Shown piece by piece: positions 7,501 through 38,835 of a stretch of DNA of 64,000 nt. The DNA comes from Lumbricus terrestris (taxonomy: Eukaryota; Annelida; Clitellata; Crassiclitellata; Lumbricidae): contig OX457046.1 of NCBI GenBank assembly GCA_949752735.1, positions 31,157,816-31,221,815 of the forward strand, read 5' to 3'. The notes under the pieces were generated by a model that saw nothing but the letters and a program-made list of their open reading frames with translations, was not told where the DNA came from and ran no database searches. Both the position numbers and the translations under genes were made by a program. The first letter of the stretch is position 1; each line of letters begins with the position of its first letter.

Positions 7501-10500
7501 GAATGCAAAAGAGGCAAAGAGAGATCAGACCATGTCCTGAGTGCGGCACGTTCTGTACTCGTCGGAACAACATAGACAGACTTATCGTATGTTCCAACTG
7601 CACAGCGCTTTCCGGAAAGCTGTTTGAGTTTTGTTGGTGGTGTTTAACTCAGCGGGCACACAATGGTACTTTGAGATGTGAGAATCTTGGATGTGGCCTC
7701 AATCAGTCACTTTATGATATCCTAGCAGTTTGTGCGTTGACGGAAGTCACTGGCGTGGAATGTCCTAGCATGAGAGCCTGTCCAAGATGCTACACTGTGA
7801 TTGAGCACGTCAAAGTGTGTAAGGACAGGACTTGCGACTACTGCAAACACGAGTTCTGCTTCATCTGCCTGAAGCCTTATCCATGCAAGACGGATGCATG
7901 GGGTACATGTGACGTGGCGCCCCGTCAAACCCCGGCCCCAATTCACACCAAGACGGCAGGAGATGACCGGTGGGAGATTTTTGTTAAGAATTTCGACGGA
8001 AAAACAGTTCTTGTGATTGTACCTGCGGTAAGATACAATCTATTCTAAACAATGGATTCACAAGATATGGCTTCTGTGTGTCTGGTTGTCGTCTGCACCT
8101 AGCCCTAGAGGTGCTAAGGGTCATTAGAGCAAACGTCAGAGTTTGATACGTGCTATAAAACTACGATAAACGTTTTTTCGACATAACTTCAGTCTACAGC
8201 AAGTATGTTTTTAGATGTGCTGTATCTTAAATAATTATGCAGTGTAGGGCCTATCTTTTTATGTTGTATATTTAGCAAACATGAAATTGCATGAGCATTG
8301 AGCACACTAGAAATGTGAGTATTGGTCTTACCGACCATCCTTAGTCTTGATTCTTCAGACTTTGAGTTATTATATACCTAAGAAGGGTTTTTGTTTTATT
8401 ACTTGATGCCCGTATCACGGGATTTTCTATCCCCCCTGAAAGCTCTCCGGGTTGATGGAATATATCGTATATAGAGTACCCGGGTGATAAGCCATCATAA
8501 CCCAATTATTGAAAAATGTGTAAGCTTATAATTTAAAAATGTATGTTGTAATCAAAATTTAAAGTGACTCCAATTGTTTTAAGTGTCCTAAGCAATGTCC
8601 AGAGCAAGGCAATTCGAATTTGGTTGGTGTCTATCAATGCTCTTTAGTGTTCTAAATGTTCTAAAGGCTCTTAACCCTCATGCGACCAACATATTTTGCT
8701 CCTTAATATGACCAACTGGGGTCCCGTGGGACCCCAATAATTAATAACGCGTTCATTGCTTGATGCGTCAATATTGTCAAAGGTAACATATGTAAATTGC
8801 TTAAATAAGCAATGTCAGTAGTTTCTATGAGTTAGTAATAATAATAACAATAATCAGGACAATTTATATAGCGCAGTAACACAGCCATCCCGTTACAACG
8901 GTTACAAGGACGCCTTACAAAGCAGCTAACATGCGGGATAAGCCATAGCGAGGAAGTAGGACTGTTTTTGCATGGATTTAAAAGGGGTATAGGACATTAC
9001 CCCTCCGGCCCATGACCCCTGTCATTACCCCCACCATTACCCCGTAGGACATTACCCCCCGCCATTACCCCATCTGTTTGCATGTAGGTCCAGTGCATGT
9101 ATGTAGGTATGCACATAAATGCATGCATACATACAAACGTACATACATGCATAAACACACAAATGCACACAAGTATGCATGTATGTATGAATGTATGTAT
9201 ATATATGCATACGTACATACATACATACATACATACATGCATACATACATTCATAAACACACATACACACAAGTATGCATGTATGTATGAATGCATGTAT
9301 CTATAGATGCATACAATACATACATACCTACACACTTGTGCACATACATGCATGCATAGGCTACGTACGTACATACATACATACATACATACATACATAC
9401 ATACATACATACATACATACATACATACATACATACATACATACATACATACATACATACATACATACATACATACGTACATACGTACATACGTACATAC
9501 ATACATGCATACATAAAGACACACATACACACATGGATACATACTTAGATGCATACATACACGCATACGTACATACATACATACATACATACACATACAT
9601 ACATATATGCATACATTACGTAATACATACAGGCATTTATACATAAACATATACATACACATACAAATACATACACACATACATGCATACATTCATGCAT
9701 AGATACATATATACATTTATGCAATGGACCTAAATGTAGACAATCAGAGGTAATGGCTGGGGGGTAGGCTAATGGCAGGGGGTAATGGGCGAGGTATTGT
9801 CCGGATCCCCTTGATATCAAGGCTTGCAGGTTTGGACTTTATGTACTGCCTGAAATTACACCTGCCACGGTAACCTCATCCACTCACAGATTTGTACCAT
9901 GAAAAAAAACTTTGGCAATTGAACAGAAAACACTTTTCTGATGTCACGGAAAGCAGTAACTTCGTCGTTGTTCAGTCTAACCGTGATTATATAAAAAGTG
10001 TTTCCTGCTCAATTGCCTTGTTGTAAAATCTCATATACCGGTACTTCATGATGCACGAAATTGTGTCCTGGACATGGTCATTATTCGTGCTATCATATTT
10101 TCCAACGTCCCTGTAGTCCAGAATTTTCTGTATTGCTTCTTTTGCACTAGATTGTACTGGACCAATTCTTGCTGTTATGATATCTTTGCATAAAGTGGCG
10201 TTCGGTTCCATCAGAAAAATCATCATAAAGCTGGAGTCCTGCGGGACCCCACTAGAAATTTCATATTTAAAAAATAACCGTAAGTGTTAAACCGGATTTA
10301 ATTATACGTAAATAATGAGCGATGTCCTTGTGACAAATTCATAAAAGATCGTTAAAAAATATTGGATAGCAAAAAAGGAACACGAGTCGAAACGGTGCTG
10401 GGGTCCCCGGGAACCCCAGTTGGTCACTTGAGGGTTAAGAGTTCTTACTGTTCGATCTAAGTGCTCTCAAACGAAGGCAAACAAAATCATCTAGTAGGAA

Positions 10501-12153
10501 TAAGCATACCTGTTATTTAGTGTCATTGTTCAAAACAAAATAGATGAATGTCAATTTGCAAAAATAAATACATGCGGAAGTGGCTTTTTTTCAACTTCCC
10601 TTCATCTGGGAAGGGATACGTTTGATAGGGGGAACTCTATTTCGTGACACCGGCGCAATAGAATTAACTAATTGTAGCAACAATAGGCCCATTATAATCC
10701 TTTTATTTCTGTGTCATGTATCTTAGCCTCGTGCAACAGCACAAAAGTCATGTTGCATGTAGGTTGCCTATTGTAGTATAGTTGATATATTCTTCATCTC
10801 GTTATTTGGTTTCTTCATTTGTAGTAGATTTAATCTAATTTTTCCAAAGGACTTTATTGAAACCGTTTTGTGTAGCTATCGGACCTGTTGTAAGATTAGC
10901 TGTTGGATTATTTTTGCAGGACTGTTTTGTCGACGAATTCTTTCGCTTGCTCTATGATCATCCAAGGACCCCGAAATGCTGTGGATACCGAGTTATATCT
11001 GGCATTTGTACGATATCTTTACAGTCTTGAATTCTTGAATATAGTTTGTATTTGCAATAATTGTGCTACAATTGTGGGCTCAAAAAGTGGAAGTATATAT
11101 AATTGGAGGCCAATTGTTAAGACGGATTAGCAGTTGACATATTTTTAAAGACATTCTGACAACATTCTGACCCAGGGTTATTTTTAAGGAATTTTTAGAA
11201 CTGCACAACCTCTTCCTTCGTTTCCCATCCTCCATGGTAAAGCACTTCCAATCGGAGGACAATGACCTTTTTCTATAGTTTTAGCTGTACAGGAGTGCTT
11301 CTACAACTGCAGAAATCCATTTAGAACTGCACATTTTGTGTAAAACTGCACGTTAAAAAAGCCCTGTTCTGACCTATCTTTTTAGCTGTGGCTGGACTGG
11401 GAGCGCCTCTGAGTAGGCTTCTTGAAGGGGTGCTATATAAGTTTTCGGAATGAATGAATGAACATAATTATGAAGAACGATTTGGCAGCCTTTAAAGAAA
11501 AGGGTTAACTAGAGTTTTGAAAGATAATCGTGAAGTTTAAGAAATTTCCTATGAACTTCTTAATTATAGGACTTTTATTTTCAACCCGTTTCTGCTACGG
11601 CCTTGGAACAGACAGTACTATCAATAGATAATGCAGAATTTTCGCGGGACCTTTTTCATCAAATTATCTAGATGGCCCAGGAGTAGTAGGCTACCCCTCG
11701 CGTAATCTTTTTGTCATCGACTTAATCACGCCCTCCATAATTCTGTCCAACTGCGGACAATTCGGTCGCAATGATTATTATTTAGCTCTGACTTTGAACG
11801 AAAAGTTTACTCTTTTGTCATAATCGTATTGGTTTTAGCCTACTTTTCTCTTTGCCATGCCTTGTCAGTTTAGCTTATAAGTCACCGAATCAAGCCACGT
11901 CAGCCCCGAAGGTACTCAGCAGTACTCGGGTCTATTTATGGCGCTTATTGATGTGGACCAGACTCTAATTTTGGACTATCAACTCGACGTAACTGTATAA
12001 ATTATAGCCTATAGGTAGGACAATATTAATTATTATGAGTTATATGCTGCTTTTTTAGCACAACTGGACAACTTATCAAAGAAGCGGCTCTCTGAATATT
12101 GCATGCGCAACGGAAGTACCGCGCATTTGCTCCTCAGGCTATGTGGTGGTTAG
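4494..12153 (+). CDS. Gene 1: UBL-RBR-UBL protein, putative RBR-type E3 ubiquitin ligase (5 exons, 422 aa)
   Basis: Exons 4494-4562, 5382-5700, 7330-8027, 10920-11007 and 12059-12153 join in frame (1269 nt, 422 aa plus stop). Residues 1-83 form a ubiquitin-like fold ending VNGG. An acidic linker (about 84-120) follows. A degenerate RING1 (CGH, then HC and CPDPDC), an IBR with CPEC, CSNC, FCWWC and H/C ligands, and RING2 (CPRC, then VCKDRTC) carry the predicted thioester cysteine at residue 293. Residues 344-422 form a second UBL ending LRLCGG at the stop. RBR ligases take ubiquitin from an E2 onto the RING2 cysteine and then pass it to a substrate, so E3 activity is inferred. The start is the ATG in AAAAATGGAG; the upstream ATG used by genes 2, 4 and 5 is TTG here. 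All donors are GT. The intron inside the N-terminal UBL is missing. Confidence 0.88.
5223..5332. mobile_element. Short palindromic MITE in intron 1
   Basis: About 110 bp with inverted ends (AGTATCGGGGACC at the left, GGTCCCCGATACT at the right) and a GGTTAGG-rich middle. Copies sit at the same place in intron 1 of gene 2 (17494-17668) and gene 3 (31240-31351), just before exon 2. It therefore entered before these genes duplicated. Confidence 0.7.
5382..5700 (+). CDS. Gene 1 exon 2 (rest of UBL-N, acidic linker, start of RING1)
   Basis: It starts after CTCTGCAG and ends in phase 1 at CACGCAGTTG before GTATGT. It corresponds to two exons in genes 3-5: the phase-1 intron expected after ATGTCCACTG is absent. 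It encodes the UBL end (LSDYDIENRS and VNGG), an Asp/Glu-rich linker, and MACGHAV. Confidence 0.88.
5760..6014. mobile_element. hAT-type MITE in intron 2
   Basis: Inverted ends CAGGGCCGGATTAAGA and its counterpart TCTTAATACGGCCCTG, flanked by an 8-bp direct repeat CTACCCTA (5752-5759 and 6015-6022). An 8-bp duplication with CAG-type ends is typical of hAT elements. Gene 2 has a decayed copy at the same place. Confidence 0.8.
6772..7012. mobile_element. MITE with CAAGGCCGTAGC ends (hAT-like), intron 2
   Basis: Left end CAAGGCCGTAGCTAGG and right end CCTGGCTACGACCG are inverted. The same family appears intact at 14510-14781 with an 8-bp duplication, and at the equivalent site of gene 2 (22170-22447). 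The shared site means insertion before genes 1 and 2 split. Confidence 0.75.
7133..7290. repeat. 38-bp tandem repeat, four copies
   Basis: Copies begin at 7133, 7171, 7209 and 7247 with CCCACGTACGGGATAGAG, plus a partial fifth. Gene 2 has one copy at 22563 and genes 3-5 have only a degenerate relative, so this is an expansion specific to gene 1. It ends about 40 bp before the RBR exon acceptor. Confidence 0.92.
7330..8027 (+). CDS. Gene 1 exon 3 (RBR catalytic module and start of UBL-C)
   Basis: The acceptor is TCAAACAG before CTCCATTG (phase 1) and the donor is CCTGCG before GTAAGA (phase 0, canonical GT). It codes for 233 residues with the split codon: end of RING1, IBR, RING2 with VCKDRTCDYC, then RWEIFVKNFDGKTV. 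If the donor is ignored the frame continues VRYNLF to a stop at 8048. Confidence 0.92.
8670..10438. mobile_element. Non-autonomous piggyBac-like element, intron 3
   Basis: The ends are TTAACCCTCATGCGACCAAC and GTTGGTCACTTGAGGGTTAA, i.e. TTAA target duplications and CCCT-type inverted ends as in piggyBac. The interior is a large CATA microsatellite and GTGGGACCCC-type sequence, with no transposase seen. Gene 3 has the empty site (GCTCTTAAGTCTTCT) with a single TTAA. Confidence 0.8.
9085..9715. repeat. (CATA)n microsatellite
   Basis: Long CATA tract, pure at about 9370-9474 and degenerate on both sides, inside the piggyBac-like element. All open frames here (Tyr-Ile-His-Thr or Met-Tyr-Val-Cys runs) come from the repeat. 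Confidence 0.95.
10920..11007 (+). CDS. Gene 1 exon 4 (UBL-C middle)
   Basis: 88 nt after TTTTTGCAG, encoding DCFVDEFFRLLYDHP and KCCGYRVISG, matching the ubiquitin helix and strand 3. The donor is GTACGA, phase 1. It is too short to appear as a good reading frame by itself and was found by comparison with the other four genes. Confidence 0.85.
12059..12153 (+). CDS. Gene 1 exon 5 (UBL-C end, LRLCGG stop)
   Basis: 95 nt after TTTTTTAG, encoding QLDNLSKKRLSEY through LLLRLCGG and TAG. It matches the ubiquitin stretch from residue 49 to 76. Arg74 of ubiquitin is Cys here. Confidence 0.87.
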
Positions 12154-15052: not shown

Positions 15053-15239
15053 GCATGGATAAGGCTTCAGGCAGAAGAAGCAGAACTCGTGTTCGCAGTA
15101 GTCACAAGTCCTGTCCTTACACACTTTGACGTACTCAATCACGGTGTAGCACTTTGGGCAGGCTCTCATGCTAGGACATTCCACACCATTGACTTCTGTC
15201 ATCGCACAAACTGCAAGGATATCATAAAGTGACTGATTG
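15053..15239 (-). pseudogene. Antisense fragment of the RBR exon (RING2 half)
   Basis: On the minus strand this reads NQSLYDILAVCAM, VECPSMRACPKC, VCKDRTCDYCEHEFC and LKPYPC, i.e. the second half of exon 3 of the array genes, including the catalytic cysteine. Similarity stops abruptly at both ends, with no linked exons in either direction. It stays open but lacks splice sites and the other domains, so it is a displaced gene fragment. The wording SMRAC resembles genes 1 and 2. Confidence 0.88.
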
Positions 15240-16824: not shown

Positions 16825-16911
16825 ATGTTGAGCGCTGCGAAAGCGGCACCGAAATGGGAAATATTAGTAATTCCTGCCATGAAGAAAACAATTATAGTGA
16901 CTGTGCCTAAG
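16825..16911 (+). CDS. Gene 2 exon 1 (UBL-N start)
   Basis: 29 codons from ATGTTGAGCGCTGCG to CCTAAG before GTTAGA, phase 0. This upstream ATG is shared with genes 4 and 5 and is therefore the ancestral start. Confidence 0.87.
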
Positions 16912-19900
16912 GTTAGAAGTTGTAACTAATTGTAATTGTTATTGTACATTTATATAGCGCACCTTCAAGAGAACTCCTCAGAGGCTCTCCCGACCTGACA
17001 CCAAATCACAATCAAAGAGAATGGTTTTGAAACGCTTGCGCAAAAGGGGCAAAGAAAGACAAAGAAGTTCATTACGGAGACTAATAGGTAGGCCTAACTC
17101 ATTCCAGAAAGACCATAGCAAAGCTTCTGTGCAGCACTGTGGAAGATCGAGCCATAGGGACAACCAGGTCACCATGCGTAGCAGAGCGAAGGAATCTACG
17201 GCCTGGAATGGATAGCACATGTACACAGAGTTTCATTTGATAGGTCGGGCTTGTTTGCTAGGCAATTACGCACGAACAACAGAATCTTAAACTCAATACG
17301 TAACTATGCTGCAGCTCTTAGAATTGGGGTTATGGTGGTAAACGTGTGTTTTTAGAGTCACAGCTTGTTTTCTGATTGTCAATGAAACAAAATCGTCGTA
17401 AATTATTTCATGTATATTTTAGACATTGTGTTTGTCGCTCAACATAGATGCGATTCTACTATAAAATATATTTGTCGCTCTTCCCTGCGGTACAACTACA
17501 GTATCATGGACCGGAGTGTCATTTAGTATCAGGTCAGGCGTCGTGAGAGATGATTAGGATGAGGATGGTCGTCGGGAGGGGTTAGGATTAGTGTCGTCAT
17601 TAGATGTTAACCAACTCACGACAGCTAACATGACCCTAAATGACACACCGGTCCCCGATACTATAGGTATGCCACGGGGAGTAGTATTTTATTTTCAATG
17701 ATATTTCCCCACGAATTATTTGTCTTTAACTCAGATTATGGATTATTCTGTGCACTTAGATAGAGAAACTAAATGTGATAGGCATTTTCCGACAAAATGG
17801 CTCAGAATTTTCCCAGATATTAGGCCTAACTGCGTGTTGTGAGGGAGAGTTAATGATGTTTGCTGTTAAATGTTTATTTCATTCTGTGCAGAACTGCACA
17901 ACTGCGGAACTGTACGATGAAGTGAAGAAGCATCCACTATCGCCAGTAGCTGTACAACATGTCCTGATGTCCACTGAAGGAGAACTGGAGAACAGTCTCA
18001 ACAAGTATTTATCTGACTATGACATCGAAAACAGAAGCGTTGTTCAACTGATGGCGAAAGTCAATGGTGGTTCATGGCCCGCAGATGACGATTCAGACAC
18101 AGAACCTATCGATACAAGTGAGGATGTTGAGATGACCGAAGAATATCCGGATGTGTTTGGATTCGACAATGAGAATCCGCGTGCTATAATGGCATGTGGA
18201 CACGCAGTTGGTATGTTTTCTTATAACAGACAAATAATTACTGATATAGTAGCCTATGCTTCTACAACATGCTACCCTAAGTATATATTATAACATAAAA
18301 TTTCCCGCATGTGTGGGGCTCCATAAAGTTTGAGGCCCTGTTCGGCCGAACATGTTGAACATGTCTTAATCCGGTGTGGCATGAAATCTTGTCCGGCATG
18401 AAATAATGTCCGGAAAGCCTTGTCATTGGTTCACGTGACCGATGACATCAGACAGCAACTGTCAAGCTACAGTATTAATAGCACCATGAGATCTTGTCCG
18501 GGGAAGACACAAAATAGACAAGATAATTATTCAGCCTACCAAAACCAATGAAACGAGGCACAGCCTAACTGACCTAACTATAATATTATTAAAACTAAGG
18601 CCTACGTGTCGAAATCCTGTATCATCCAAAATTATGGGTTGTAAGTAAAATTAGCTTGTCCTAAACTTATTCTACTTTAACGGCCAATTGAAAGTGATTG
18701 TGTATGAAGTTAGAAAATGAGTAGGCTATAAACACACTTCAGACAGATAGCCTAGGCTAACAGGGCGTATCTCGAGATCTGTTGTACGTGGTATCCTATC
18801 AAAAGGTCGAATTTCAAAAGGGCGCAATCAAAAGAGCGCAATCAAATGGACGAAAATCACGAGAGCGCATTGCTTTTAGATCGCACGATCAATAGGGCGA
18901 AAAGACAAATATTGAGTGATCAAAAGGGCGCAGTCAACGGGGTGCAAACTAATACAATGAAAGGCAGTCAAAGGGCGCGTTTTAAAAGACCGAAAGGAAC
19001 CGAAAAGGGTAAATAAAGAGTGTGCTAATAAGGCGACGAGCAATCGAAGCCCACTGGATTGAAACGAAATGATTAAAAGAAGAATTTAACAGGTCAGTAA
19101 GAAAAGAACGATTATGAAACGAAGGCTGGATGAAGGTTCTCTTACATGTGAAATAGAAGCTGGATTGACGAAAATAATGTTTAAGAAATGGAAGAAGGAT
19201 GAAGATTCTTTTATTGATGAAATAGGAGTTGGATTGATGAAAATAATGCTTAAGAAATAGAAGATGGATTGACGAAAATAATGCTTAAGAAATGGAAGCT
19301 GAATGAAGGTTCTTTTATCGATGAAAAAATAGGAGTTGGATTGATGAAAGTAATGTTTAAGAAATAGAAGCTGGATTGACGAAAATAATGCTTAAGAAAT
19401 AGAAGCTGGATGAAGGCTCTTTCAACGGTGGTTACATGCGCCCTTTTGATTGCGGTCTTTTAAACATGCGCCCTTTTGTTTCTCGCCCTTTCGACCATGC
19501 GCTCTGAAAACAATGCTCTTTATTCATTTTCGCCCTTTTGATTGCGCCCTTTTGAAATTCGCTCTGTTGATAGTGAACCGTTGTACGTAGTAGACCTAGT
19601 CTACATGAGCATTATAAGTCAACAGCAGTAGCATCGTACCGCGTTCATAGATTTAGACTAGCCTATAGGCCATGGGCGGAGACCTAGGGGAGACAGGGAG
19701 ATGGTCCCCCAATGGAGGTGTCGGGGGGACGGCTCGTGCATTTATCCCCCCAGTCGTTGAGCGTCACGACTAAAAAAGGTCATCAATTGTTTGGCGGCGA
19801 AAATAGAAAATATCGTCAAGATTTTTCGCCGGGTGACTATAAAAAAGTCGTCAGAGATTTTGGCCGACAAAAAAATTGAAATTTTTCGGCGGCGACACTT

Positions 19901-22900
19901 AGCCACTTGTCCGTCAAAAAATCTCGCGTCTTTTCGTCCCCCCCCAAGTCTCCGCCCAGGTATCCGCCGATGCTATAGGCCTATAGAGCTTCTCGAACAA
20001 TGACCCACATAGTCCCCTCAGCACGAAAACGCGGATCCCGAGGAAAAGAAAATAGCCCTAATGCTTTAAATTGACCAGAAAAAAGCCGTAAGTTTGGCGC
20101 TTAGTGCGAAAAAGTCATTTCATATGGAAATACCAACCACAGCCAACGTCCGATGTTGGGCAAGAGCAGTAGCCTACCCTATTGGCCCTTATTCTGGGAA
20201 CAATTAAAAGATGAAGAAATCAGCAGAACATTATAGGCCTAATCTCCGATATGAGGATGCGGTTAACGGCTTGTGCGCATATTTTTAGAGTCTTTAGGTT
20301 ATTCGATCCCACCATTGCTTTGGAAATCTGAAAGACGATCGATCTAGTAAAGATTGTAGGCAGTGGATACGTGTAGCGATAGGTAGCCATGCAGTGCAGG
20401 ATTTCAAGCTAGTCAAGCATATGCCTAATATCAGTAGGCCTACTTCATATTTGGAATACATATTTCAAGTATCAGCAGCCCAGTTGATGAACAGCGTGCA
20501 AACTATACATACACACATAGAAGTTTACAGCTATAACAACTAGGTGAAAAAACAGAACTGAAAACTAAGGGATAAATGGAAAGTCTAATTTTTAAAGGTT
20601 TTAGAACTCCTTTCTATGCTCTGAAAGCGATCTTACTCATTTACACAGGCCTCATTGACTCATCGCCAGTTCGCCACGTTCCACGATGGGAATTTCCTTC
20701 TAAATATAGAACTAGCGTCATCGTGGTCGCAACAAACATCGCGCATTAAAACAATAATTCAACTGTTTACATCCTTGATTTCTCATCCCATATATAAAAT
20801 TATATTATTGATTTTATGTTAGTAAGATACTTTTACGCGGATAATTTATATAATAATTAGGAAATACTGTTTCGATAAAGAAAGTAGGCGGAGTCGTGTC
20901 CATTTCATGCCGGACAAGATTTCATGCCGGACAAGATCTCATACGTATGCCGTATGAAATACTGTCTTGACAGCGGAAGTGGGCGGAGCCGGACACAATT
21001 TCATGCCGGACAAGATTTCATGCCACACCGGCCCTGCTACCCTAACTAGCATGCAGCACTTATATCTTGCACTTGCTCTTGAGCTCATGACATTTACTCT
21101 GACATTTGACATTATGCGTGTAAAGCATCCTAGAAGTGGCTTGCCTCTGACGATGCTATATAAATTGTCTGAATTACATTACATTACAAAAGGCCTACAT
21201 ATACTCTACACTTGTATATGTATTAGCACAGAAGAGCGGCTACTAGGTTATAGAGTTAGAATTTGAGGGCGAGCATAAAGCGAGACAGCATGTTCCCAAT
21301 AAAGTTGAGGTAATAAACCAAGAGTTAACCGTTATTATTTATTATTATATTCGTTTAATGGTAACAAAAACTGATAGACACACCACTATCAAGTACAAAA
21401 AGCAGTTGATCAATTACAATCAATATAATACCTATAGAATGCCTTTAGCCTTGTCTGTTGAATTTGTCTTAGGATGAAAGCACAAAATGACAGAAATTAC
21501 AAAAAGAATGCTTCTATGTTTATAGGCAGCTATAATGAGATTAGACAATTTATCCATGGCTGTTCAATAATAACAGGGAATAGAAGAACAAGCTTGCAAG
21601 GCGGCTATAGAAGAGGCAGGCGCATCACATCAGCCTGATATTTCGGGGCAAGATTCTGCTGTGCTTTTTTAGACCAAAATGGGAATTTGGATTTGAAAAT
21701 TGGCAGTGTATTTTTAAGTAAAAAATTAAGCAATCAGCTCTTGCAAAGGCTCGCATATGAAACATTCGAGAGAAAGGCTATTCTGCAGAAGATCTATTTG
21801 CTTGTGCGCAAAGGAATCTATTCTAGAATACGCTGCTACTTTTATTGACTCTTGCCAAGTTCTTGAAGATTAGTAGGCTATTCTCTTTTCAAGAGATTGG
21901 CGTTTAACTGTCATTGAATCAAGCCTGGTTAAAGTGGTAGCTTCATCAAAAGAGATGTATGCAGTCAAGTTCGTTGTGCATTCCATTTATTAATTAATGC
22001 ATCTTAGCAATGCACTAAGTGTGTGTGTGATAGTTTTGCATAATGTGATCAATCATATAAATCATATACCCGCCTGTGCTACACATAGTAGGCCTAAGGC
22101 TACGCAGTACTCATGGACTTTACGCGTAATTCACGTATATTACTACACTTTATTATTACTTCCGTGTGTCAAGGCCGTATACTAGCTAGGGGTGCTTTGG
22201 GTGCTTGAACAATCCCACCCCACCCCCAAATGTATTAACGCTGCCGTGAAATAATGCATTACTAACATAATCATGATGTAGGCTAAGGACTTAAGGGATT
22301 TCATTTCGAAGCTCTTATTTCTATGTGATGACATTTTGCAATAGATTAAATCACCATCCAAACACCTTAGTCCGTTGTTTCGGTTGCTTGTCGGCTCGAT
22401 CAAGGTTGAGTAAACACCCCCGAAATAAAATTCTGGCTACGACCGTGGTATGTGTTATATTGCATCATTTATCGATGTCCCATTGTGCGCTCGCAAACGG
22501 AGTAATGAAGACCATAATACTTGTTACTTGTTTAAGTTTTTAAAAATAATGTAATCCAGGTGCCCACGTACGGGATAGAGTAAGGCTACTTAGTACAGTA
22601 CTCATGGACTGTACTTAATTTTGCATTAATTTTATTTTCAAACAGCTCCACTGTCACTTGCATTGCACTGCTACGATGAATTGGAAAACGGAGAGGAGTC
22701 GATCCGATGTCCCGATCCTGATTGCGGCACACACTGGAAGTTTAGCCAGATCCGAGAAGCTGCTGATCTCACAGTGGATGAAAGCCACGAGTTTGAACGT
22801 AAAGCTCTTTTCAACAGGATGCAAAAGAAGGAAGAAGAGATCAGACCATGCCCTGAGTGCGGCACGTTCTGCACTCGTCGAAACGACACGGACAGACTTA

Positions 22901-23823
22901 TCGTATGTTCCAACTGCACGGTGCTTTCCGGAAAGCTGTTTGAGTTTTGTTGGTGGTGTTTAACACAGCGTGCACATAATGGTTCTATAAGATGTGAGAA
23001 TCTTGGATGTGGCCTCAATCAGTCACTTTTTGATATCCTTGCAGTTTGTGCGATGACAGAAGTCAATGGTGTGGAATGTCCTAGCATGAGAGCCTGTCCA
23101 AGATGCTACACCGTGATTGAGCACGTCAAAGTGTGTAAGGACAGGACTTGCGACTACTGCAAATACGAGTTCTGCTTCTTCTGCCTGAAACCTTATCCAT
23201 GCAAGACGGATGTATGGGGTACCTGTGACGTGGCGCCCCGTCAAACCCCGGCCCCAATTCGTCCCATGACGGCAGGAGATGACCGGTGGCAGATTTTTGT
23301 TAGGAACCTCGACGGAAAAACAATTACTCTGAATGTGCCTGCGGCAAGTTTCAAAATCGTTCCCATAACAATGATTGATGCTGGAGGTGGTTATGGTCGT
23401 TAAAGAAAACCTTAGACTTTATCCCTTTTAAAAGTATACATGTCAAGTGTTCTGTATTTTAAATATACAATCAATATATTTATATTGTATATTTAGCATA
23501 CATAAATTTACCATATATATTTTGTATAATTATTTAACCCTCAGGCTACCAAGCTTTTTTGTAACATGGACTACCAAGGGGGGGTGGTTACCAACCCCCT
23601 GGGTATTGGGTTTGGTTTGAGATATCATCACTTGCAATACACCAATGGATAGAGCATTCATTTCTGCACAAAATGATATATTTAGGTTCTAAAATATATT
23701 AATCTACCTCGAAATTATACAATTTTTCCCTGGGGACCCTATGATTCCACAAACGTGTACTTTTGCATGGGCAGAATATTAGATTCTGTGTGTTTTGAAC
23801 ATGTGTGTTAACAGTCATGTATG

Positions 23824-23857
<34 letters not shown>

Positions 23858-26800
23858 TGTATGTATGTATGTATGTATGTATGTATGTATGTATGTATGT
23901 ATGTATGTATGTATGTATGCATATATGTATGTATGTCTGTATGTATGTATGTTTGTATGTATGTATGCATGCATACTTGTAAATATATATGTAAATATGA
24001 ATGTATGTACGAAGGCATGCGTGCATGCATATATGTTATTATGTATGTATGTATATATATTTGCATGCATGTATGTATACATGTATGTATATATATATGT
24101 ATGCATGTATGTATGCATGCATGTATGTATGTATGCATGTATGTATGTATGTATGTATGTATGTATGTTTGGAAATATATATGTATGTATGAATGTATGT
24201 TCGAAGGCATGCATGCATGCATGCATATATGTAATTATGTATGTATGTATATTTGTATGCATGTATGTATACATGTATGTATATATGTATGTATGTATGC
24301 ATGCATGTATGTATGCATGTATGTATGTATGTTTTTATGTATGTTTGGAAATATATATGTATGTATGAATGTATGTACAAAGGCATGCATGTGTGAATGC
24401 ATGTATGTAATTATGTGTGTATGTATGTATGCATTGTGTATATATATATATATGTATGTATACATGTATGTATGCATGTATGTATGTATTCATATTCAAT
24501 GTCTGTTTCAGCTAATATAAGTTCATTAGCTGGCGACAAAGTTTACGCACAAATATCGATTTGCGTTGTAAAAACCCCAAAATTTTCACACATTTTAATT
24601 TATTTTGAGCACTTCCGGTCATCAAAAGTCAAATTAATTGGTATGAAAAAATAGCCTTTCATGCCCGCTATGGAATGGCTTAATTTATATCTCTTCAAAA
24701 ATATATTATGGATACGCCATAATAGAAAAACAGGAATTTTTTACGAAAATAAAATCTATTTTTTTTATATTTTAATTTATTTTGAGCACTTCCGGTTTTC
24801 AAAAGACAAATCAATGAACATGGAAATGTAGCCCCACATTCCCTCTATAGAATGGTATAATTTGTGTCCCTTAATGTTAAACGACCGACAAGATATAGCC
24901 GATAATCTAGGGGGGGGTGGTATCCACCCCCTCTGGTACCTCGAGTATATCTGGTATAACTTTTGAACGGTAGGGGCATCATCAAAAATATTACCTCAAA
25001 ATGTGTGCAAATGAACCCTCTACAGCTACCTAAAATGTCAAAATTTTATTCCAAACGAAACAAGAATTATTTGGAAAAAATCTAGGGGAGGGGTGGCACA
25101 CCCCCCTAATCCCCCCCTTGGTAGCCCGAGGATTAACATACAAACACTATGTGGGTATTGGACTTTCCGACCATCCTCAGTCATTATTCTTCAAACTTTT
25201 ATTATTGACTCTATACTGGCTTTTGTTTTGTAGGCAGATGCCTAGTGCCCTAGATGCCGATGTCACGAAATAGAGCATGCCCCCATAATAATTCCCCACA
25301 AGGGCGGACAGAAATTTTCGAAGGAGGGGGCCAAAATTTTCGGTCTTGGGACAGGGGAAAATGTTCGTTTTGGTCGCCAAAAAATCTCATGACCTTTTTT
25401 GGTCTTTTGTCTCGATTTTCCAAGAAAAAGATACCATTTTATCCGCCAAAATAGTTGATGACCTGTTTTAGTCATACGGATCTCGTGTGCGGACCTCGTG
25501 GGCATGGGGAGGGCCTACGAGACTACTCATGTACTCATGGGGGGACGTCAACTTTCCAAGCCGGAATAGCTGGTCAAAAATAAAGAAATTTCTAAATGGG
25601 GGTCATGGCCGGATTGGCCTCCTGGATCCGCCACTAATCCCCCACAAAAAGATAAGATGAAGAAAGCCTCTTCCACGTGTGTTTATTTTGTGAATTAACT
25701 TCCATTTGCTTTTTTGAACACATCTAGGCCTACTTAGTTACAGGTGTGTTTGTTCTTACCAGCTAACTTTATTTGCTTTGCTTTTACAACACTTAGAACA
25801 TTTAGGACACTTAAGCACATTTACTGTTACTTAGTAAACTCGTGTTGCCTTGCTTTTTGAACATGGCCTGGGCCACTTAAAACAACTAGAGTTACTTTAA
25901 ATGTTGAATACAGCAAAAATGTATAAATTGTGCGCATTTTTCAATGACTAGGGAGGGATAGAATGGTTTAATTCTCCGAATACTCTTTCTCCGGTCTTAA
26001 TTCATCCCCGGGATAAATTTAGGTGGGGTAGAATATCCCACGACACCGGCACAAATACAATAGTAACCGATAAATAGGACGGCAATTAAAATCCTTTCGT
26101 TTGTGGGTTCTGTGTCTTCTTAGTCTTGTGCAACAGCGCAAAAGCCATTGCATTTAAGCCTACGTAGAGTTGGTCTGTTCTTCATCTCGTTATCGGCTTC
26201 TTCATTTGTAATAGATTCATTAAAATTGTCAGGTCGACTTTGTTAAAAAATTTAATTGAAGCTATATGAGTTGTAAGATAAGCTGTTGAATTAATTTTGC
26301 AGAACTGCTTCATCGACGAATTCTTTCGCTTGCTCTATGATCACCCAAGGACCCCGAAATGCTGTGGATACCGAGTTATATACGGTATATTTGGTAAGAT
26401 ATCCTGTCTTCTTGAGTAGGCCTATAGTTTATGTTTGCTGTAATATTGTGCTCTTTGTGGGTCCGAGAAGTGGGAATAAAAGTGCTTAGAGACCAATTGC
26501 GGATTAGTTGTTAACAAGACCATTGAGGACATTTCTGACCAATATAATTATGAGAAGAGTTTTGAAATACACCACTCATTGAAGGGAAATTTAACCAATG
26601 CTTCCTCTCCTCTTTCTAGTGCTTGACAGATTTTGATTGGAAAGATACAGTTAAATCAATGGCTATAATTTCCTTGTTTGGCTGAAAGGCAGTTGGGTAG
26701 TTGTCCATTATTTCTCTTTGATACATGTGTCTGAAAGCTGTGAGGCCCAGTTAGCTACCTTCGTAAGAGAGCTGGCGGCCGCGCGTCTGTGAAAGAGAGC

Positions 26801-27744
26801 GTGCGGGCCGCGGTTCGATTCCCGAAGGTGGCTATTTCAGAGATTCATAATCTCGGGCTAGCACGGTCCGTCCACGGGGACCTAAATGGCGTGGCGTCCA
26901 TTCAAACGGGCGAGCGGTGGTGAAGGATCTCACCCTCAGGGCCGAGGCCATAGACAGCCGCTATATAAAAATCCGATTACATTTACATTTACATTTACTT
27001 CCAAATATCAAGCAATGCTTAGATTCAGACATACAAATTTTGTGTAGTATAACGATAATATAATTATAATAGCCTAAATACAATCACAATAGCCTAAATA
27101 CAACCACACTTTTATTTCACGCAGAGTCGTTGCATGGAAGAATGAATGTCTGAAAGCTGTGAAGAATTCTACTCTTTGCTAATTCTTTTGTGAATTCATT
27201 AATTTTGACGTTTTACAATGTATGCCAAACTGCGGTGGAACTCCTAGCTGGTGTCGCGTGACAGTCTCCCCATAAAAGTCTCCCCCGGAGGTTCTATTTC
27301 ACTCCAGTCTCATCAGCTATTACTATTAGCCTAGAAGTAACCGTGTTTTCATGTGCCAGTACGCTAGAACCAAAACACGTAAATTTTTCATACAGTACCA
27401 GGGCCTCCCAGTTTGGAATAAGCTATCCAGTGACATCCAAAATGCTCACAGTCTACCACAATTCAAAGGACTTATCCGAATCCATACACTTAACACAAAC
27501 AAAATATAATTACCCTATCCAGTTTCCGACAGTCTGTCTATCTTCTCTCAGTCACTCACTTGTTCAATGGACCCCGACTAGCGGGACCTGTCTCTTCAGG
27601 TGAGCCCTTTGTTCCCACTTAAACTCATTTAAATCTGCAGTTTTACTCGTTTCTTTGTTTCATGTGTTCTATTACTGTTCTGCCTAACTGTAAAATGTGT
27701 TTTCTGGGATCAGTAAACGAATCGAGTGATTGATTGATTGAAGA

Positions 27745-27775
<31 letters not shown>

Positions 27776-27790
27776 GAGTGATTGACTGAC

Positions 27791-27822
<32 letters not shown>

Positions 27823-27950
27823 GATATTATCATTTATACGCTGTTATTTGTTCAGGCGATTTGGACAACAGAGTAAAGAAACGGCTCTCTGAATATGGCA
27901 TGCGCAACAATAGTAACGTAACTTTGCTCCTCAGGCTACGGGGTGGTTAG
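16825..27950 (+). CDS. Gene 2: UBL-RBR-UBL protein ending in LRLRGG (5 exons, 429 aa)
   Basis: Exons 16825-16911, 17892-18210, 22646-23343, 26303-26393 and 27856-27950 give 1290 nt. UBL-N is residues 1-89 (MLSAAK, then KWEILVIPAMKKTI, ending VNGG); the linker runs to about 128; RBR is about 130-330 with predicted catalytic Cys299 (VCKDRTC); UBL-C is 350-429. UBL-C is the most ubiquitin-like of the array: RWQIFVRNLDGKTITLNV at the start, YRVIYG in strand 3, LSEY, and LLLRLRGG directly before TAG. Positions equivalent to ubiquitin Leu8, Lys11, Arg42, Ile44 and Arg72-Gly76 are kept; Lys63 is Asn. A mature ubiquitin-type tail on an E3 could in principle be activated by an E1 or act as an intramolecular ubiquitin mimic; this is inference. 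The donor after exon 3 is GC. Exon 4 is 3 nt longer than in the other genes. Confidence 0.9.
17494..17668. mobile_element. Palindromic MITE in gene 2 intron 1
   Basis: Degenerate copy of the 5223-5332 element with GTATCATGGACCGG and CCGGTCCCCGATACT ends, at the equivalent site. Confidence 0.6.
17892..18210 (+). CDS. Gene 2 exon 2 (UBL-N rest, acidic linker, RING1 start)
   Basis: 319 nt, same length and ends as in gene 1, and like gene 1 lacking the internal phase-1 intron. The linker is Asp/Glu-rich (PADDDSDTEP). Confidence 0.9.
18790..19580. mobile_element. Fold-back, Mutator-like element with AAAAGGGCGC repeats
   Basis: The inverted ends share GAATTTCAAAAGGGCGCAAT, and both arms are built from iterated CAAAAGGGCGCAATC-like words. 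The 9-bp direct repeat GTTGTACGT flanks it (18781-18789 and 19581-19589). A 9-bp duplication suggests the Mutator superfamily. The middle (about 19080-19420) holds tandem repeats of about 60 bp with GAAGCTGGATTGACGAAAAT. Confidence 0.7.
19671..19965. mobile_element. MITE with GGGCGGAGAC ends
   Basis: Inverted ends CATGGGCGGAGACCTAGG and CCAAGTCTCCGCCCAGG, with the AAAAAGGTCATCA-type interior seen in other hAT MITEs of the window. A clean target duplication was not found. Confidence 0.6.
21032..22169. other. Gene 2 intron 2 sequence homologous to gene 1 intron 2
   Basis: Aligns with gene 1 from about 6015 onward, including the 21570-21870 segment related to the open frame at 52532. No exon is recognised: the frame is broken by stops. 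Confidence 0.6.
22170..22447. mobile_element. CAAGGCCGTA-type MITE, gene 2 intron 2
   Basis: Ortholog-position copy of the 6772-7012 element: starts CAAGGCCGTATACTAGC and ends CTGGCTACGACCGTGG. Confidence 0.7.
22646..23343 (+). CDS. Gene 2 exon 3 (RBR module and UBL-C start)
   Basis: 698 nt after TCAAACAG. The donor is CCTGCG before GCAAGT, a GC donor in phase 0. Read-through would add ASFKIVPITM... to a stop at 23401-23403. It contains the complete IBR and RING2. Confidence 0.92.
23534..25136. mobile_element. Second piggyBac-like non-autonomous element, gene 2 intron 3
   Basis: TTAACCCTCAGGCTACCAAG at the left and CTTGGTAGCCCGAGGATTAA at the right: TTAA duplications with imperfect inverted ends. 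The interior has a TATG microsatellite and G-rich GGGGGTGGT segments. It is related in style but not in sequence to the 8670-10438 element. Confidence 0.75.
23817..24495. repeat. (TATG)n microsatellite
   Basis: Long TATG tract, pure at about 23828-23918. Larger units of about 165 bp (GGAAATATATATGTATG...AAGGCATGCATGC) are repeated three times within it. Reading frames here are repeat artefacts. Confidence 0.95.
25299..25635. mobile_element. hAT-type MITE, GGGCGGA ends
   Basis: CAAGGGCGGACAGAAATTTT at the left and CTGGATCCGCC at the right, flanked by AATTCCCCA and AATCCCCCA (a near-perfect duplication). It is the same family as 62039-62406, sharing CGTCAACTTTCC and AGAAATTTCTAAATGGGGG. It sits within an older GATGTCACGAAATAG element. 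Confidence 0.78.
26303..26393 (+). CDS. Gene 2 exon 4 (UBL-C middle)
   Basis: 91 nt after ATTTTGCAG, encoding NCFIDEFFRLLYDHP and CGYRVIYGIF. The donor is GTAAGA, phase 1. Confidence 0.87.
26745..26998 (+). mobile_element. tRNA-headed SINE (family B)
   Basis: The head TAAGAGAGCTGGCGGCC, the B-box-like GGTTCGATTCCCG, a core TTCATAATCTCGGGCTAGCA, and a tail ending GCCGCTATATAAAAATCC(ATTTAC)n. A second copy is at 61391-61645. Confidence 0.8.
27340..27822 (+). mobile_element. LINE 3' end with (ATTG)n tail
   Basis: The frame starting near 27385 reads FFIQYQGLPVWNKLSSDIQN and LPQFKGLIRIHTL, the C-terminal signature of CR1/L2/RTE-type non-LTR reverse transcriptases. A 3' untranslated region and an ATTG/ATTC tail (27727-27822) follow. 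It is 5' truncated. Confidence 0.72.
27856..27950 (+). CDS. Gene 2 exon 5 (UBL-C end, LRLRGG stop)
   Basis: 95 nt after TTGTTCAG, encoding DLDNRVKKRLSEYGM and LLLRLRGG, then TAG. The last six residues equal those of mature ubiquitin. Confidence 0.9.
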
Positions 27951-29998: not shown

Positions 29999-30067
29999 AT
30001 GGAGACGAAATGGGAGATATTGGTAATTCCCGCTATGGAGAAAACAATTCTAGTGACTGTGCCTAAG
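29999..30067 (+). CDS. Gene 3 exon 1 (UBL-N start)
   Basis: 23 codons, almost identical to gene 1 exon 1 (METKWEILVIPAMEKTI). Donor GTTAGA. Confidence 0.85.
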
Positions 30068-33000
30068 GTTAGAAGCTGTATCTTATTTTCCAATCTAGAG
30101 CAGGCCTGGGCCTACAGTATGCGAAACCATTGTCTTCCCCATTAAATCAAATAAAAGCTGGTGTTGTTGATAGCAGCAATAAAAGTGATAGTAGCTTTTT
30201 TTTATTGAAGCAATCCGGTTGACAGACCGCAACCGGTTACAATGTACATTGATGCAATTTAAGAAATTCACAAGAACGCAATTACAGAAGACATAAATCT
30301 TGACTACTAACAGAACAGACAGCCTGCAATACGCGGCGCTAATAGCAGCCTACAAAGCAAGTCAGCACTCCCAGGCGCGAACTCGTTAGGCCTATATATG
30401 ATGGTATTCAATGCGCTACTGCCTTCCCCCATGTTGCCATTCTGTTATGCGAAGCATGCTCCTATGACTAATTGTTAATGGTTACAATATATTGAATTGA
30501 ATTGAAAGAAAATCAAGAGTAGGCCTAGGCCTTCATTACGCGGAACCCTTGTCTTCCCCATTCATCAGCATCATCAAAATCCATGGGTTAAATACACGTA
30601 GGTGTCCGACGCCACTCTCTGTCTGAGTCTGTCTCGCGTCATGCTGCCCAGCTTCAACCGGTCCGGTCAGCAGGTCTGCTCCATACCATTAACATCTTGG
30701 AGCAGCTAGACCACATTGTCTGATTGAAGAGAATATTGGGAGAGAGGCATGAAGGACAACCTGGGTCAATGCCCGTATGTGTACCACGCTCTCTCCCCCG
30801 ACTCTCTCCACTGGTCTGTCCTGACCGGCCTGTGCATGTCAGCTCCACATCATGACACCTTGAAGCATCTGGGTCGCTATGTCACTTGTGCCGTGGTTTT
30901 TGGCATTTCAGTCGTCTTGGTCTTTTACTGCCAGAGTATCGCCACCCATCTGGCAAACCTTCCTCCTTTTGTCCGGGCTTAGGACCGGCACAGGAACGCT
31001 GTTGTTTCCTGTGGCGGAGGATGGATGCAGTTTAACGTCGTGCCCAGGACAAGTCTTCCCCATTACAAACATACACGTATATTAGCTGGTGTTGTTGATA
31101 TCCGAAGACTTTAAAATCTTTGGCGACACTTAGTCTAGTGGTAGAGTCTGCATTCATTCAAATTTTTTCACCTACGTAATTCACTTACTCATTCGTCGCG
31201 AGCCTGTTCACTGTGTTCAGATGGTGCACATACAGGTATAACTAAAGTATCGGGGACCAACGTGTCTTTTTGGGCGAGGTTAGGGGTCGTGACGGCCGGT
31301 TAGGTTTAAGTTTAGGGTCAGTGTTGTCTTTCGGTCCCCAATACTATAGTTGGCTCATCTAACATAATATAAATTTGATGATTTTTGCTTTTATTTCGTT
31401 ATCTGCAGAACTGCACAACTGCGGAACTGTACGATGAAGTAAAGAAGCATCCACTATCGCCAGTTGCTGTACAACATGTCCTGATGTCCACTGGTATGGC
31501 AATATTTCCTTGGTTTCATTCTCATTGAAAGTTCTTTGGGTATTGTGCGCAGATCCGAGAAATCACTACATTAACCAGAAGGGTATCTTCTGTGCTTGCT
31601 GCCCGATTAGGCTTGTTGACCAATCAACAGATTTAGGGAGCTCATCCACCTTGATAATGGGTATTAGTAGTTTTAATACCAGTACACAAAAGCAAAAGTT
31701 TATAATGGTTAACCTCAGTTTAACAGATACCGCATGACTATTGACTGTTGGAGCTGAAGATCAGTTGTCATTTACAAGGATGGGCTTATCTATAACTATC
31801 ACATCTAATGCTATCCATGATTTTCATATTCGTGTGCTTTTTAAGTTCCGGGAAATGCTGTTGCTTGATGAGAGTCATGGTTGTCCAAAGAAGGGTGTAA
31901 ATTACATGTAATGTTCAATTGTTCATGTCATGCGAGTAGGTGTACTATATGAGCGGCAGTGGTGAAATGAGCAGCCGGACGTTTCGAGCTGCCAAAGAGT
32001 TAACTGTGACTCATGTAATAGCTAGGCTGTAGCTTCCTATATCCTCTCTTCAAACAAAGAAGTGTAATTGCGATGCGTAGCCTAATTTTGAACTCAAATG
32101 AAGATTATTACTGGGTCTACTATTATTTTGTAAATAATTTAGGTCTACTCTTTGAAATCTGCAGTCCTTTGAAACATTCCTACGAAATAACCAATAATAT
32201 CACACATCTTGTATCTTTAAGAAGTGGCAATTTCTGGCATCTAAAAACATGTTTTTCTTACTCAGAAGGAGATCTGGAGAACAGTCTCAACAAGTATTTA
32301 TCTGACTATGACATCAAGAACAGAAGCGTTGTTCAGCTGATGGCGAAGGTCAAAGGTGGTTTATGGCCCGCAGATGACGATTCGGACACAGAACCTTTCG
32401 ATACAAGCGAGGAGATGGAGGTGACTGAAGAATATCCGGATGTGTTTGGGTTCGACGACGAGGATCCGCGTGCTATAATGGCATGTGGACACGCAGTTGG
32501 TAGGTTTTCTCAGCATATACAAAATAATTGTTGATAGTAGCCTATGCCTCACTAACATACTGCCAGGGCTGAAAATGAGCCGCGTCTGTTCTGGTCTGCG
32601 ACCCTGCATTGATTTTCGTGTATATAACTAAACCTTGTTACTGGCCTACTGCTATGTTTTATATTGCATTATTTGTCGATGTTCCAACGTGCGTATGCAA
32701 ATGGAGATAATAAAGGCTATAAAACTTACTTACTTGCTCAATTATTTTGTAATGTAATGCATGTGCCCATGTGAGACCTAAAGTAGGGCTATGTATACTC
32801 AGCACATACGGATTGTGCTTAATATGCGTTAATTTTATTTTCAAACAGCTCCACTCTCACTTGCATTGCACTGCTACTATGAATTGGAAAACGGTGAGGA
32901 GCTGATCCGATGTCCCGATCCTGATTGTGGCGAACACTGGAAGTTTAGCCAGATACGAGAAGCTGTTTCTCTCTCAATGGATGAAAGTCACGAGTTGGAA

Positions 33001-36000
33001 CGTAAAGCTCTTTTCAACAGAATGCAAAAGAAGGAAAGAGAGATCAGACCATGCCCTGAGTGCGGCACGTTCTGTACTCGTCGAAACAACAGAGACAGAC
33101 TTATCGTATGTTCCAACTGCACGGCGCGTTCCGGAAAGCTGTTTGAGTTTTGTTGGACGTGTCTAACACAGCGGGCACACACTGGTACTCTAAGATGTGA
33201 GAATCCTGAATGTGACGACAATCAGTCACTTTATGATATCCTTGCACTTTGTGCGTTGACAGAAGTCAATGGCGTGGAATGTCCTAGCAAGAGAGCCTGT
33301 CCAAGATGCTACACCGTGATCGAGCACGTCAAAGTGTGTAAGGACAGGACTTGCGACTACTGCAAATACGAGTTCTGCTTCCTCTGCTTGAAGCCTTATC
33401 CTTGCAAGACGGATGCACGGGGTACCTGTGACGTGGCGCCCCGTCAAACCCCGACCCCAATTCGTGCCATCAAAGCAGGAGAGGCCTGGTGGCAGATTTA
33501 TGTTAAGAACATCGACGGAAAAATAATTACTCTGGATGTACCTGCGGCAAGTTACAGTATTGTTTTCTAAACAATGGATGCTCAGGAAATTATTTCTATA
33601 TATTTGGTTGACGACTGTACCAAGCTATGGAGGTCCTTAGGGTTATTAAAGCAAACGTCAGAGTTTGATAGCCTATAAAAATACGATAAACTTTTTGTCT
33701 CGACATAACTCAAGTCGCCAGCAAGCGTGCTTTTCAGATGTGCTGTATGTTAAATTTTTTACAATGTATATTTTTATGTTGTATATTAAATATACACAAG
33801 CAGTATATGTAGAATATAATGTATATTTAAGACACAGCACTCAAGAAATGTGAGTGTTGGTCTCTCCGACCATCCCGAGTCTTGATTCTTCAGACTTTGT
33901 TTTGTTACATACCTGGGTTTTTATTTATTATTTGATGCCTGTGTCAGGGGAAATCCTATCCCTCCTTAATGCTATCTGAATGATCGAAAAAGTGCATAAT
34001 TAAAAAATGTATACTGCTATAAAAATGTAAAGTGACTTTAATTGCTTTAGGTGTCCTAAGTGGGGCGCGGTGGTGTAGTGTGTATGTTCGTCACCTTGCA
34101 GCCGAAGATTGCAGGTTCGAATCCCGCCGCGTAGGGACCTTTGGCAAGTCCTTCACTCGCAATTGCTCAGCGCTTCGGCGTGAAACTCCGATGCTGTGTC
34201 CGCGCTGTAGTCGGGAGCGCCTCTGAGTAATGGGCTTGAAGGGACACTTTAACAAGTGCACATAGGCTACACACCATAAGTAATGTCCAGAGCAAGGCAA
34301 CTCATATTTGGATAGTGACTCTCTCTAAGTGCTCTTAAGTCTTCTAAAATTTAATGTTCTAAGTGCGCTCAAACGGAAGCAATCAAACTCATCTAAAGTA
34401 GGAATAAACATACCTATTAGTGCCATTGTTCAAAACAAAAGCAGATGGAAGTTAATTTGCAAAAAATTAATACACGCGGAATTGCGGATGTGGCTTTTTC
34501 AACTTCTCTTCATCTGGGAGGGGGTACGATTAATACGGGGGCTATTCTATGTCGTGACTTCGGCGCAATGGAATAAACTAATTTTGGCAACAATTATCAA
34601 TCTGTTTGTTTCTGTGTCCTGTGTCTTAGCTTCGTGCAACAGCGCAAAAGTCATGTTGCATATACGTTAAAGTTGATCTGTTCTTCATCTCGTTATTTGG
34701 CTTCTTCATTAGTAGTGGATTTATTCTAATTTTTCAGGACGACTTTATTTAAACATTTTTTGGTGTAGCCTATAAGTTGTAAGATTAGATGTTTATTTAT
34801 TTTGCAGGACTGTTTTGTCGACGAATTCTTTCGCTTGCTCTATGACCACCCAGAGACCCCGAAATGCTGTGGATACCGAGTTGTATCTTGCGGTGGTACG
34901 ATATCTTGACTTCTTGAGTAAATTTGTATTTGCTATAATTGTGCACCTTGTGGGTTCGCGAAGTGCATGGGAATAGACATACTTAGAAGCCAATTGCGAA
35001 GGCGGATTAGTAGTTGACATGTATTTTGAGGACATTCTAACAACATGTCACCATCTGAAGAAAGTTTGGCAACCCTTTTAGAAAAGGTTTAATCAGAGTG
35101 TTTGAACGATAATTACGAAGTTCAAAATTTTCGAATAGACTTCTTAATTACAGGATGTTTGTATCTTGCCCGTTACTGCTGCGACCTTGAAATCTACTAT
35201 GTATGTATGTATGTATGTATGTATGTATGTATGTATGTATGTATGTATGTATGTATGTATGTATGTATGTATGTATGTATGTATGTATGTATGTATGTAT
35301 GTATGTATGTATGTATGTATGTATGTATGTATGTATGTATGTATGTATGTATGTATGTATGTATGTATGTATGTATGTATGTATGTATGTAGGCCTATGT
35401 ATGTATGTATGTATGTATGTATGTATGTATGTATGTATGTATGTATGTATGTATGTATGTATGTATGTATGTATGTATGTATGTATGTATGTATGTATGT
35501 ATGTATGTATATGACCATTTATATAGCGCTTTAACAAGAATCTCATGAAGGCGCTCAACGTAGCTACCCAACAGATCTAAACAGATGCGATATAAGAGAT
35601 TTAGAAAATGTTTCCTGAGATGCATTCGGTGCAATGTTACGAATTGTCAATGGAAGACAGTTCCAGTAGGCATATGAAGGACCAATGCATGAGAATGCAC
35701 GGCGAGCCCGCATCGAAGTACGAGAGCGAGGAACCATCAGGTCCCCACGAGTGGAAGAGCGCAAGGATCGACGACCTGACTGGCTGGAGACAGGAACGCA
35801 GAGCTCCCTAATGTACGCTGAGGCAGCACATACCATGGATGCTCGTCCCATAATAATGATCTTGAATGCGATCCTATCTTCAACCGGGAGTCAATGCAAC
35901 GTACCTCGCATATAGATGGAAATATGCGAGAATTTTGGGAGATTGGCGACGACTCGGGCAGCGCAGTTGAGGACGGACTGAAGTCGTATCCGGAACTTTG

Positions 36001-38748: not shown

Positions 38749-38835
38749 ATGTTGAATTGTGCAAAAACGGAAACGAAATGGGAAATATCAGTGATCCCAG
38801 CTATGAAGAAAACAATTATTGTGACTGTGCCTAAG
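38749..38835 (+). CDS. Gene 4 exon 1 (UBL-N start)
   Basis: 29 codons, ending CCTAAG before GTTAGA, phase 0. Confidence 0.85.

Follow-up and report, generated by a model that had tools for sequence, protein, structure and literature searches.

Our findings describe five same-strand tandem genes in a 64,000-nucleotide stretch of the Lumbricus terrestris genome (the window), all predicted to encode a ubiquitin-like domain (UBL1), a part resembling the RING-between-RING (RBR) ubiquitin ligases and a second, C-terminal ubiquitin-like domain (UBL2). The analysis is anchored in gene 2 (16825-27950), and four further genes share its design. Because the ubiquitin-type binding face of UBL2 shows codon-level diversifying selection, we tentatively favor the reading that UBL2 is a natural "ubiquitin variant", a docking module that may steer the ligase-like protein to different ubiquitin-binding partners.

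Diversification of the UBL2 face

In gene 2, five exons with predicted splicing join in frame to give a protein of 429 residues (UBL1 at residues 10-89, an acidic linker, the RBR-like part at 131-335 and UBL2 at 350-429) that ends LLLRLRGG and then TAG, as the earlier note on this DNA had read it. All acceptors are AG and all donors GT, except for the GC after exon 3 (GCG/GCAAGT); the donor after the RBR exon is GC in genes 2-5, giving a GC-AG intron in four of the five genes, and GT in gene 1. The link from exon 3 into exons 4 and 5 rests on more than one gene, because the four other tandem genes share the layout and intron phases, and the identical exon layout in five copies rules out chance or a wrong splice join. 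In a neutral simulation of the last 61 codons, the other four paralogues were all stop-free in only 33 of 2000 runs. The whole gene 2 protein matches PF00240, the Pfam ubiquitin family, above its cut-off (2e-8, two stretches), as do the other four whole proteins, and gene 2 UBL2 by itself scores 25.1 bits, just below the cut-off of 25.4. Structure prediction gives UBL2 a ubiquitin fold, the most diverged copy included; the fold prediction that the earlier note had proposed for gene 2 residues 350-429 thus came out as a predicted ubiquitin fold. Of the 76 ubiquitin residues, 23-29 are identical in UBL2 and 20-22 in UBL1. Between the copies, protein identity is 54-75% for UBL2, 75-90% for the RBR part and 80-95% for UBL1.

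Codon models were run with our own script on the five paralogues. For UBL2, a site model allowing an omega (the ratio of nonsynonymous to synonymous rates) above 1 improved the fit with twice the log-likelihood difference (2dlnL) at 23.1, placing 30% of codons at an omega of ~4 and about half at ~0.15. This value ranged from 21.8 to 23.1 over nine settings and was reached in none of 100 null simulations, the maximum of which was 7.6. The selected codons (posterior >0.7) fall at positions 4, 6, 8, 11, 12, 14, 35, 44, 47, 48, 49, 64, 66, 67, 68, 70, 72 and 74 in ubiquitin numbering, with two more, one preceding UBL2 and one in an inserted loop, bringing the total to 20. Libraries of engineered ubiquitin variants (UbVs) are described as randomizing ubiquitin residues 2-14, 42-49 and 62-76 (PMC12155308). 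These segments, 36 positions in all, hold 17 of the 20 selected codons, against 3 in the other 45 positions (Fisher test, 2.8e-5), and at stricter posteriors the counts are 11 vs 2 (0.9; p = 0.0017) and 9 vs 1 (0.95; p = 0.0024). A list of Ile44/Phe4 face positions gave 15/17 selected vs 5/64 elsewhere; that list, drawn up after the sites had been seen, is not relied on. The UBL2 helix, CF(V/I)DEF, is almost constant across the copies, and aligned pieces of the non-coding DNA beside the UBL2 exons of genes 1 and 3 are ~18-25% different. The Ile44 face of ubiquitin is normally among the least changeable of surfaces. The ubiquitin face that corresponds to the changing face of UBL2 is described as being read by UBA1 (PMC12355090) and by many partners (PMC5434665). 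A stable fold with a diversifying face is the pattern one would expect if a docking module were matched to changing ubiquitin-binding partners or in conflict with them. UBL2 would target the enzyme, and its putative partners would be proteins that bind ubiquitin, for example deubiquitinases, ligases or pathogen factors.

Several points weigh against a docking role. A whole-domain omega above 1 was not seen for UBL2, the one-ratio value being 0.96 (RBR, 0.52; UBL1, 0.45), and its pairwise omegas are 0.42-1.00 in nine of ten pairs and 2.56 in one; the UBL2 signal is therefore confined to a class of sites. The RBR part carries a weaker signal too (2dlnL 15.1, 9% of codons, not simulated; UBL1, 2.8), and the pattern is thus not limited to UBL2. 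Five paralogues are few, the site posteriors are naive, and within a tandem array the effects of gene conversion can look like selection. The exon joins of the five genes are models predicted from shared splice sites, and the full-length structural model (pTM 0.28) gives a domain arrangement that is not usable. Word-based protein searches found no UBL2 orthologue from other species, a weak negative, and six of the 13 relatives elsewhere in the genome whose 3' ends were read are without an anchor-like tail. The one-ratio omega of UBL2, not different from 1, would also suit a duplicated C-terminal domain of little function that is simply drifting. We consider such relaxation quite unlikely, as the model without an omega above 1 is rejected, slow and fast codons coexist in the proportions given above, and the reading frame is open in all five copies.

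The C-terminal tail and internal regulation

In the gene models, TAG follows immediately after each UBL2 tail (Table 1), so that the stop codon lies at the Gly76 position in 5/5 copies. The diglycine is kept in four of them (gene 3 has VG and is without Gly75), Arg72 in four (gene 5 has Asn) and Arg74 in two. The Leu8, Ile44 and Arg72-Gly76 equivalents that the earlier note had recognized in gene 2 UBL2 are present, as is that of Arg42, and Leu replaces Val70. A conserved mature ubiquitin tail as a family trait was rejected, since gene 2 alone keeps the full LRLRGG (1/5 copies).

UBA1 is described as contacting the Ile44 patch, Arg42, Arg72 and Arg74 of ubiquitin (PMC12355090). With the equivalents of Arg42, Arg72, Arg74 and the diglycine in gene 2, and the stop in place throughout, the RLRGG tail of gene 2 (perhaps also the tails of genes 1 and 4) might be adenylated by an activating enzyme (E1), which would allow the ligase to be linked by its C-terminus to a lipid, a substrate or the cysteine of its own RING2. 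Ancestral reconstruction lends this some support, with Gly75/Gly76 at 0.99-1.00 at all three inner nodes and Arg72 at 0.98-0.99 at two of the three, but it returns Arg74 at only 0.50-0.51 and Arg72 at 0.09 in the ancestor of genes 4 and 5. Moreover, the selected codons include positions 44, 72 and 74, the Ile44 patch is variable across the copies, genes 3 and 5 depart from the tail as noted above, and 2/5 tail columns are invariant vs 34/75 of the remaining UBL2 positions. Judged from the sequences, conservation does not favor a self-charged modifier as the function of the family, and we regard a self-encoded modifier as unlikely. The earlier note had inferred either an E3 whose own tail is activated or a tethered ubiquitin mimic that regulates or primes the RBR; the second half of that inference fits better, and the first is not favored, because the face and tail read by E1 are among the fastest-changing parts.

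The tail invites one further explanation. Terminal Gly-Gly is described as the consensus degron of KLHDC1/KLHDC2, with ubiquitin-like domains as substrates of this receptor family (PMC11568203), and the diglycine kept in 4/5 copies could be read by KLHDC2-type receptors that set the half-life of the protein. We find this very unlikely, as it leaves the retention of the whole fold and the diversification of its face unexplained.

Internal regulation of the kind found in Parkin must also be weighed. The Parkin UBL is described as an intramolecular inhibitor (PMC3940038), and UBL2 (and UBL1) could similarly pack on the RBR-like part and keep it inactive, with the variable face co-evolving with the RBR of its own protein. 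The presence of selected codons in the RBR part agrees with this, and Parkin (5n38) is the top Foldseek match of the full model by E-value (1.2e-8), though at a TM score of 0.21 and a root-mean-square deviation of 29. The model offers no confident domain contact, however, and co-evolution within a protein does not by itself predict an omega above 1; on balance this regulation appears somewhat unlikely to us.

The RBR-like part, its relatives and the origin of UBL2

The RING2 cysteine reported by the earlier note holds up: Cys299 is invariant in 19/19 aligned rows and lines up with the catalytic cysteine of ARIH1/ARIH2. Other features speak against an ordinary active RBR. Four of eight RING1 zinc ligands are left (C131, H133, C157 and C162, which we take to match ligands of ARIH2 RING1), the gene 2 linker has no Cys upstream of C131, and the second residue after the RING2 cysteine is Asp (CKD) in all five window genes. 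By definition, the RING1 of an RBR E3 binds two zinc ions through eight ligands (PMC3940038), and a His at the second position past the RING2 cysteine is described as having a role in RBR catalysis (PMC11354881). Because half of the RING1 ligands are gone and the catalytic His is Asp, we term these proteins RBR-like and claim no ligase activity for them. The IBR domain (PF01485) scores above cut-off in genes 1-4 and below it in gene 5 (22.1 vs 24.3 bits). A protein search returned 15 relatives, namely 12 fish proteins (P0003-P0013 and P0015) and P0001, P0002 and P0014. Over the RBR there is homology with the fish si:ch211-212k18.15 / DDB_G0292642-like family, including the CGH...C half RING1 and the APRQ end, and the half RING1 recurs in the fish rows. 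At the position two after the RING2 cysteine, the fish rows and P0002 have Asn, while P0001, P0014 and 5/8 neighbours have His (CKH).

The gene 2 RBR exon, used as query against the genome (1.06 Gb, 331 contigs), has 38 matches: seven in the window (the five genes and two remnants) and 31 beyond it. Each of these 31 stops at or before query residue 212, short of UBL2, and no dedicated search for UBL2 exons was made. In the flanking DNA, eight RBR exons are readable to a stop, five of which end in CAIQ, CTIS, CAIL, CIVQ and CIIQ and three of which have no such end; five further 3' ends comprise one CTIL, one hydrophobic stretch and three with neither. In all, 3' ends were read for 13 of the 31 relatives (6 CaaX-type, 1 hydrophobic, 6 neither), the description of these ends as CaaX motifs or hydrophobic tails being a reading of the sequence rather than a computed assignment. 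P0001, from a different source, ends in CVII. A tree of 17 RBR sequences groups the five UBL2 copies together (support 100/99), next to the CaaX-ended and other relatives; 4/14 of its internal branches are open, and it includes five rows flagged as long. Two relatives on the same contig (L038 and L039) end in CTIL and in ~20 hydrophobic residues, exchangeable C-terminal tails within one ligase family. In another relative, L024 (RBR exon C12:31325193), NDLGNDLEN-type repeats form a long run that separates the RBR from a CaaX-type end.

UBL1 and UBL2 agree in both intron positions and in their phases, which one would expect of a domain and its copy, and in genes 3-5 an additional UBL1 intron has the same place and phase as the last UBL2 intron. 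Direct acquisition from a ubiquitin gene is not favored given these shared introns, though UBL2 is slightly nearer to ubiquitin than UBL1 is. Next to a neighbouring gene lies a stretch resembling the UBL1 exon 1 of that gene, though the match is weak (E 1.1), and it closes with the same GC donor context, VPE/GCAAGT. We propose that UBL2 arose once in the array, when UBL1-type exons would have been joined behind the RBR exon, and that it may now occupy the C-terminal position at which some relatives carry what resembles a membrane anchor. A scan of viral contigs for a viral carrier, using two UBL1 words, matched a word in 71 stretches, none of which encoded a relative, and this is a weak test. 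The motif GG-x-W-P ends UBL1 in 10/11 copies, comprising 6/6 readable neighbours (within ~100 kb downstream) and 4/5 window genes (in gene 2 at 18066-18080). It resembles an uncut ubiquitin precursor, and its occurrence in both neighbours and window genes makes an internal diglycine a common trait of the UBL1 copies here. UBL2 terminates exactly where UBL1 would if it were cut after its GG.

A bolder extension, to which we give little credence, treats the C-terminus as an exchangeable slot. A prenylation motif or hydrophobic anchor would have been replaced by a UBL2 whose free glycine is itself charged and then attached to a protein or lipid, with the face diversifying in an arms race; if true, the enzyme would tether itself covalently.

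The window also holds two pieces of the RBR exon outside the exons of the gene models and long four-base microsatellites (Table 1). Rfam (at the gathering threshold) and a tRNA scan gave no matches.

Table 1. Coordinates of the array genes, the parts of gene 2 and other features of the window
Feature	Position	Strand	Remarks
Gene 1 (422 residues, 5 exons)	4494-4562, 5382-5700, 7330-8027, 10920-11007, 12059-12153	+	UBL2 tail RLCGG
Gene 2 exon 1	16825..16911	+	Start codon and first UBL1 strands; GT donor, phase 0
Gene 2 exon 2	17892..18210	+	Remaining UBL1 (internal KVNGG/SWP, GG end 18071), acidic linker, RING1 start (Cys131 codon 18195)
Gene 2 exon 3	22646..23343	+	Degenerate RING1, IBR, RING2 (to ~23244); UBL2 strands 1-2 from 23287; GC donor 23344-23345
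Gene 2 Cys299 codon	23134..23136	+	Aligns with ARIH1/ARIH2 RING2 cysteine; their His two residues on is Asp in gene 2
Gene 2 exon 4	26303..26393	+	UBL2 helix and strand 3
Gene 2 exon 5	27856..27950	+	UBL2 end; RLRGG 27933-27947; TAG 27948-27950
Gene 3 (422 residues, 6 exons)	29999-30067, 31409-31493, 32266-32499, 32849-33546, 34808-34895, 36497-36591	+	UBL2 tail RLRVG
Gene 4 (429 residues, 6 exons)	38749-38835, 39577-39661, 40199-40435, 41315-42012, 43319-43406, 44054-44148	+	UBL2 tail RLTGG
Gene 5 (428 residues, 6 exons)	48309-48392, 49944-50028, 51425-51664, 55253-55947, 57624-57711, 58781-58875	+	UBL2 tail NLLGG
Lone RBR-exon fragment	15053-15238	-	92% identity to gene 2 over 62 residues; probably a broken copy
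Short RBR-exon piece	54528-54593		82% over 22 residues, in the large intron before the gene 5 RBR exon; probably a remnant
Four-base microsatellites	1386-1708, 9208-9716, 23817-24489, 35198-35510		Long; upstream of genes and intronic

Relation to known systems and significance

The earlier note held a C-terminal ubiquitin-like domain with a mature tail to be unusual and suggested looking for UBL-RBR-UBL architectures; a word-based search found none among the 15 protein matches (1615 candidates; the same 15 among 5761), which supports that view. A protein search with the UBL2 region gave no match among 25 candidates, and no protein with UBL2 was found. This absence is weak, because the searches require shared 5-residue words and similar length. 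Judged by titles and abstract openings among the literature matches listed, a UBL-RBR-UBL protein has not been described. The fish RBR proteins (si:ch211-212k18.15, DDB_G0292642-like and others) have a homologous RBR (33-38% identity) with the same half RING1 and APRQ end, but they are 237-299 residues long, show no UBL in the alignment and end ~10 residues past VAPRQ. Parkin and HOIL-1 share an N-terminal UBL before the RBR but are described with an N-terminal UBL only, and Parkin has a two-zinc RING1 and the catalytic His (PMC3940038). ARIH2 gives a profile match over RING1-IBR-RING2 (E 5.9e-7) and ARIH1 over RING2 (E 4.8e-7), with the RING2 cysteine aligned, although the window proteins differ from both in the absence of four RING1 ligands and of the His at position +2 from that cysteine. 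ISG15 and FAT10 diverge fast. They too are described as having a ubiquitin fold that ends in a free GG and bears a polar patch in place of the hydrophobic one (PMC12355090), but each is a modifier made up of two UBLs and has no ligase domain. UbVs likewise keep the ubiquitin scaffold and vary in the segments that hold most of the selected UBL2 codons (PMC12155308; also PMC5434665 and PMC5451084), yet they are laboratory-made and free-standing, whereas UBL2 is natural, germ-line encoded and fused to a ligase-like protein.

In summary, a domain that keeps its fold and changes its face between tandem copies, carried by a ligase-like protein, would be a natural counterpart of the engineered UbVs. 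With it, one could test whether hosts deploy ubiquitin look-alikes as traps or guides for ubiquitin-binding enzymes. The replacement of a probable membrane anchor by a ubiquitin fold ending in diglycine, at the same site within a single gene family, would further offer a clean comparison of tail function.

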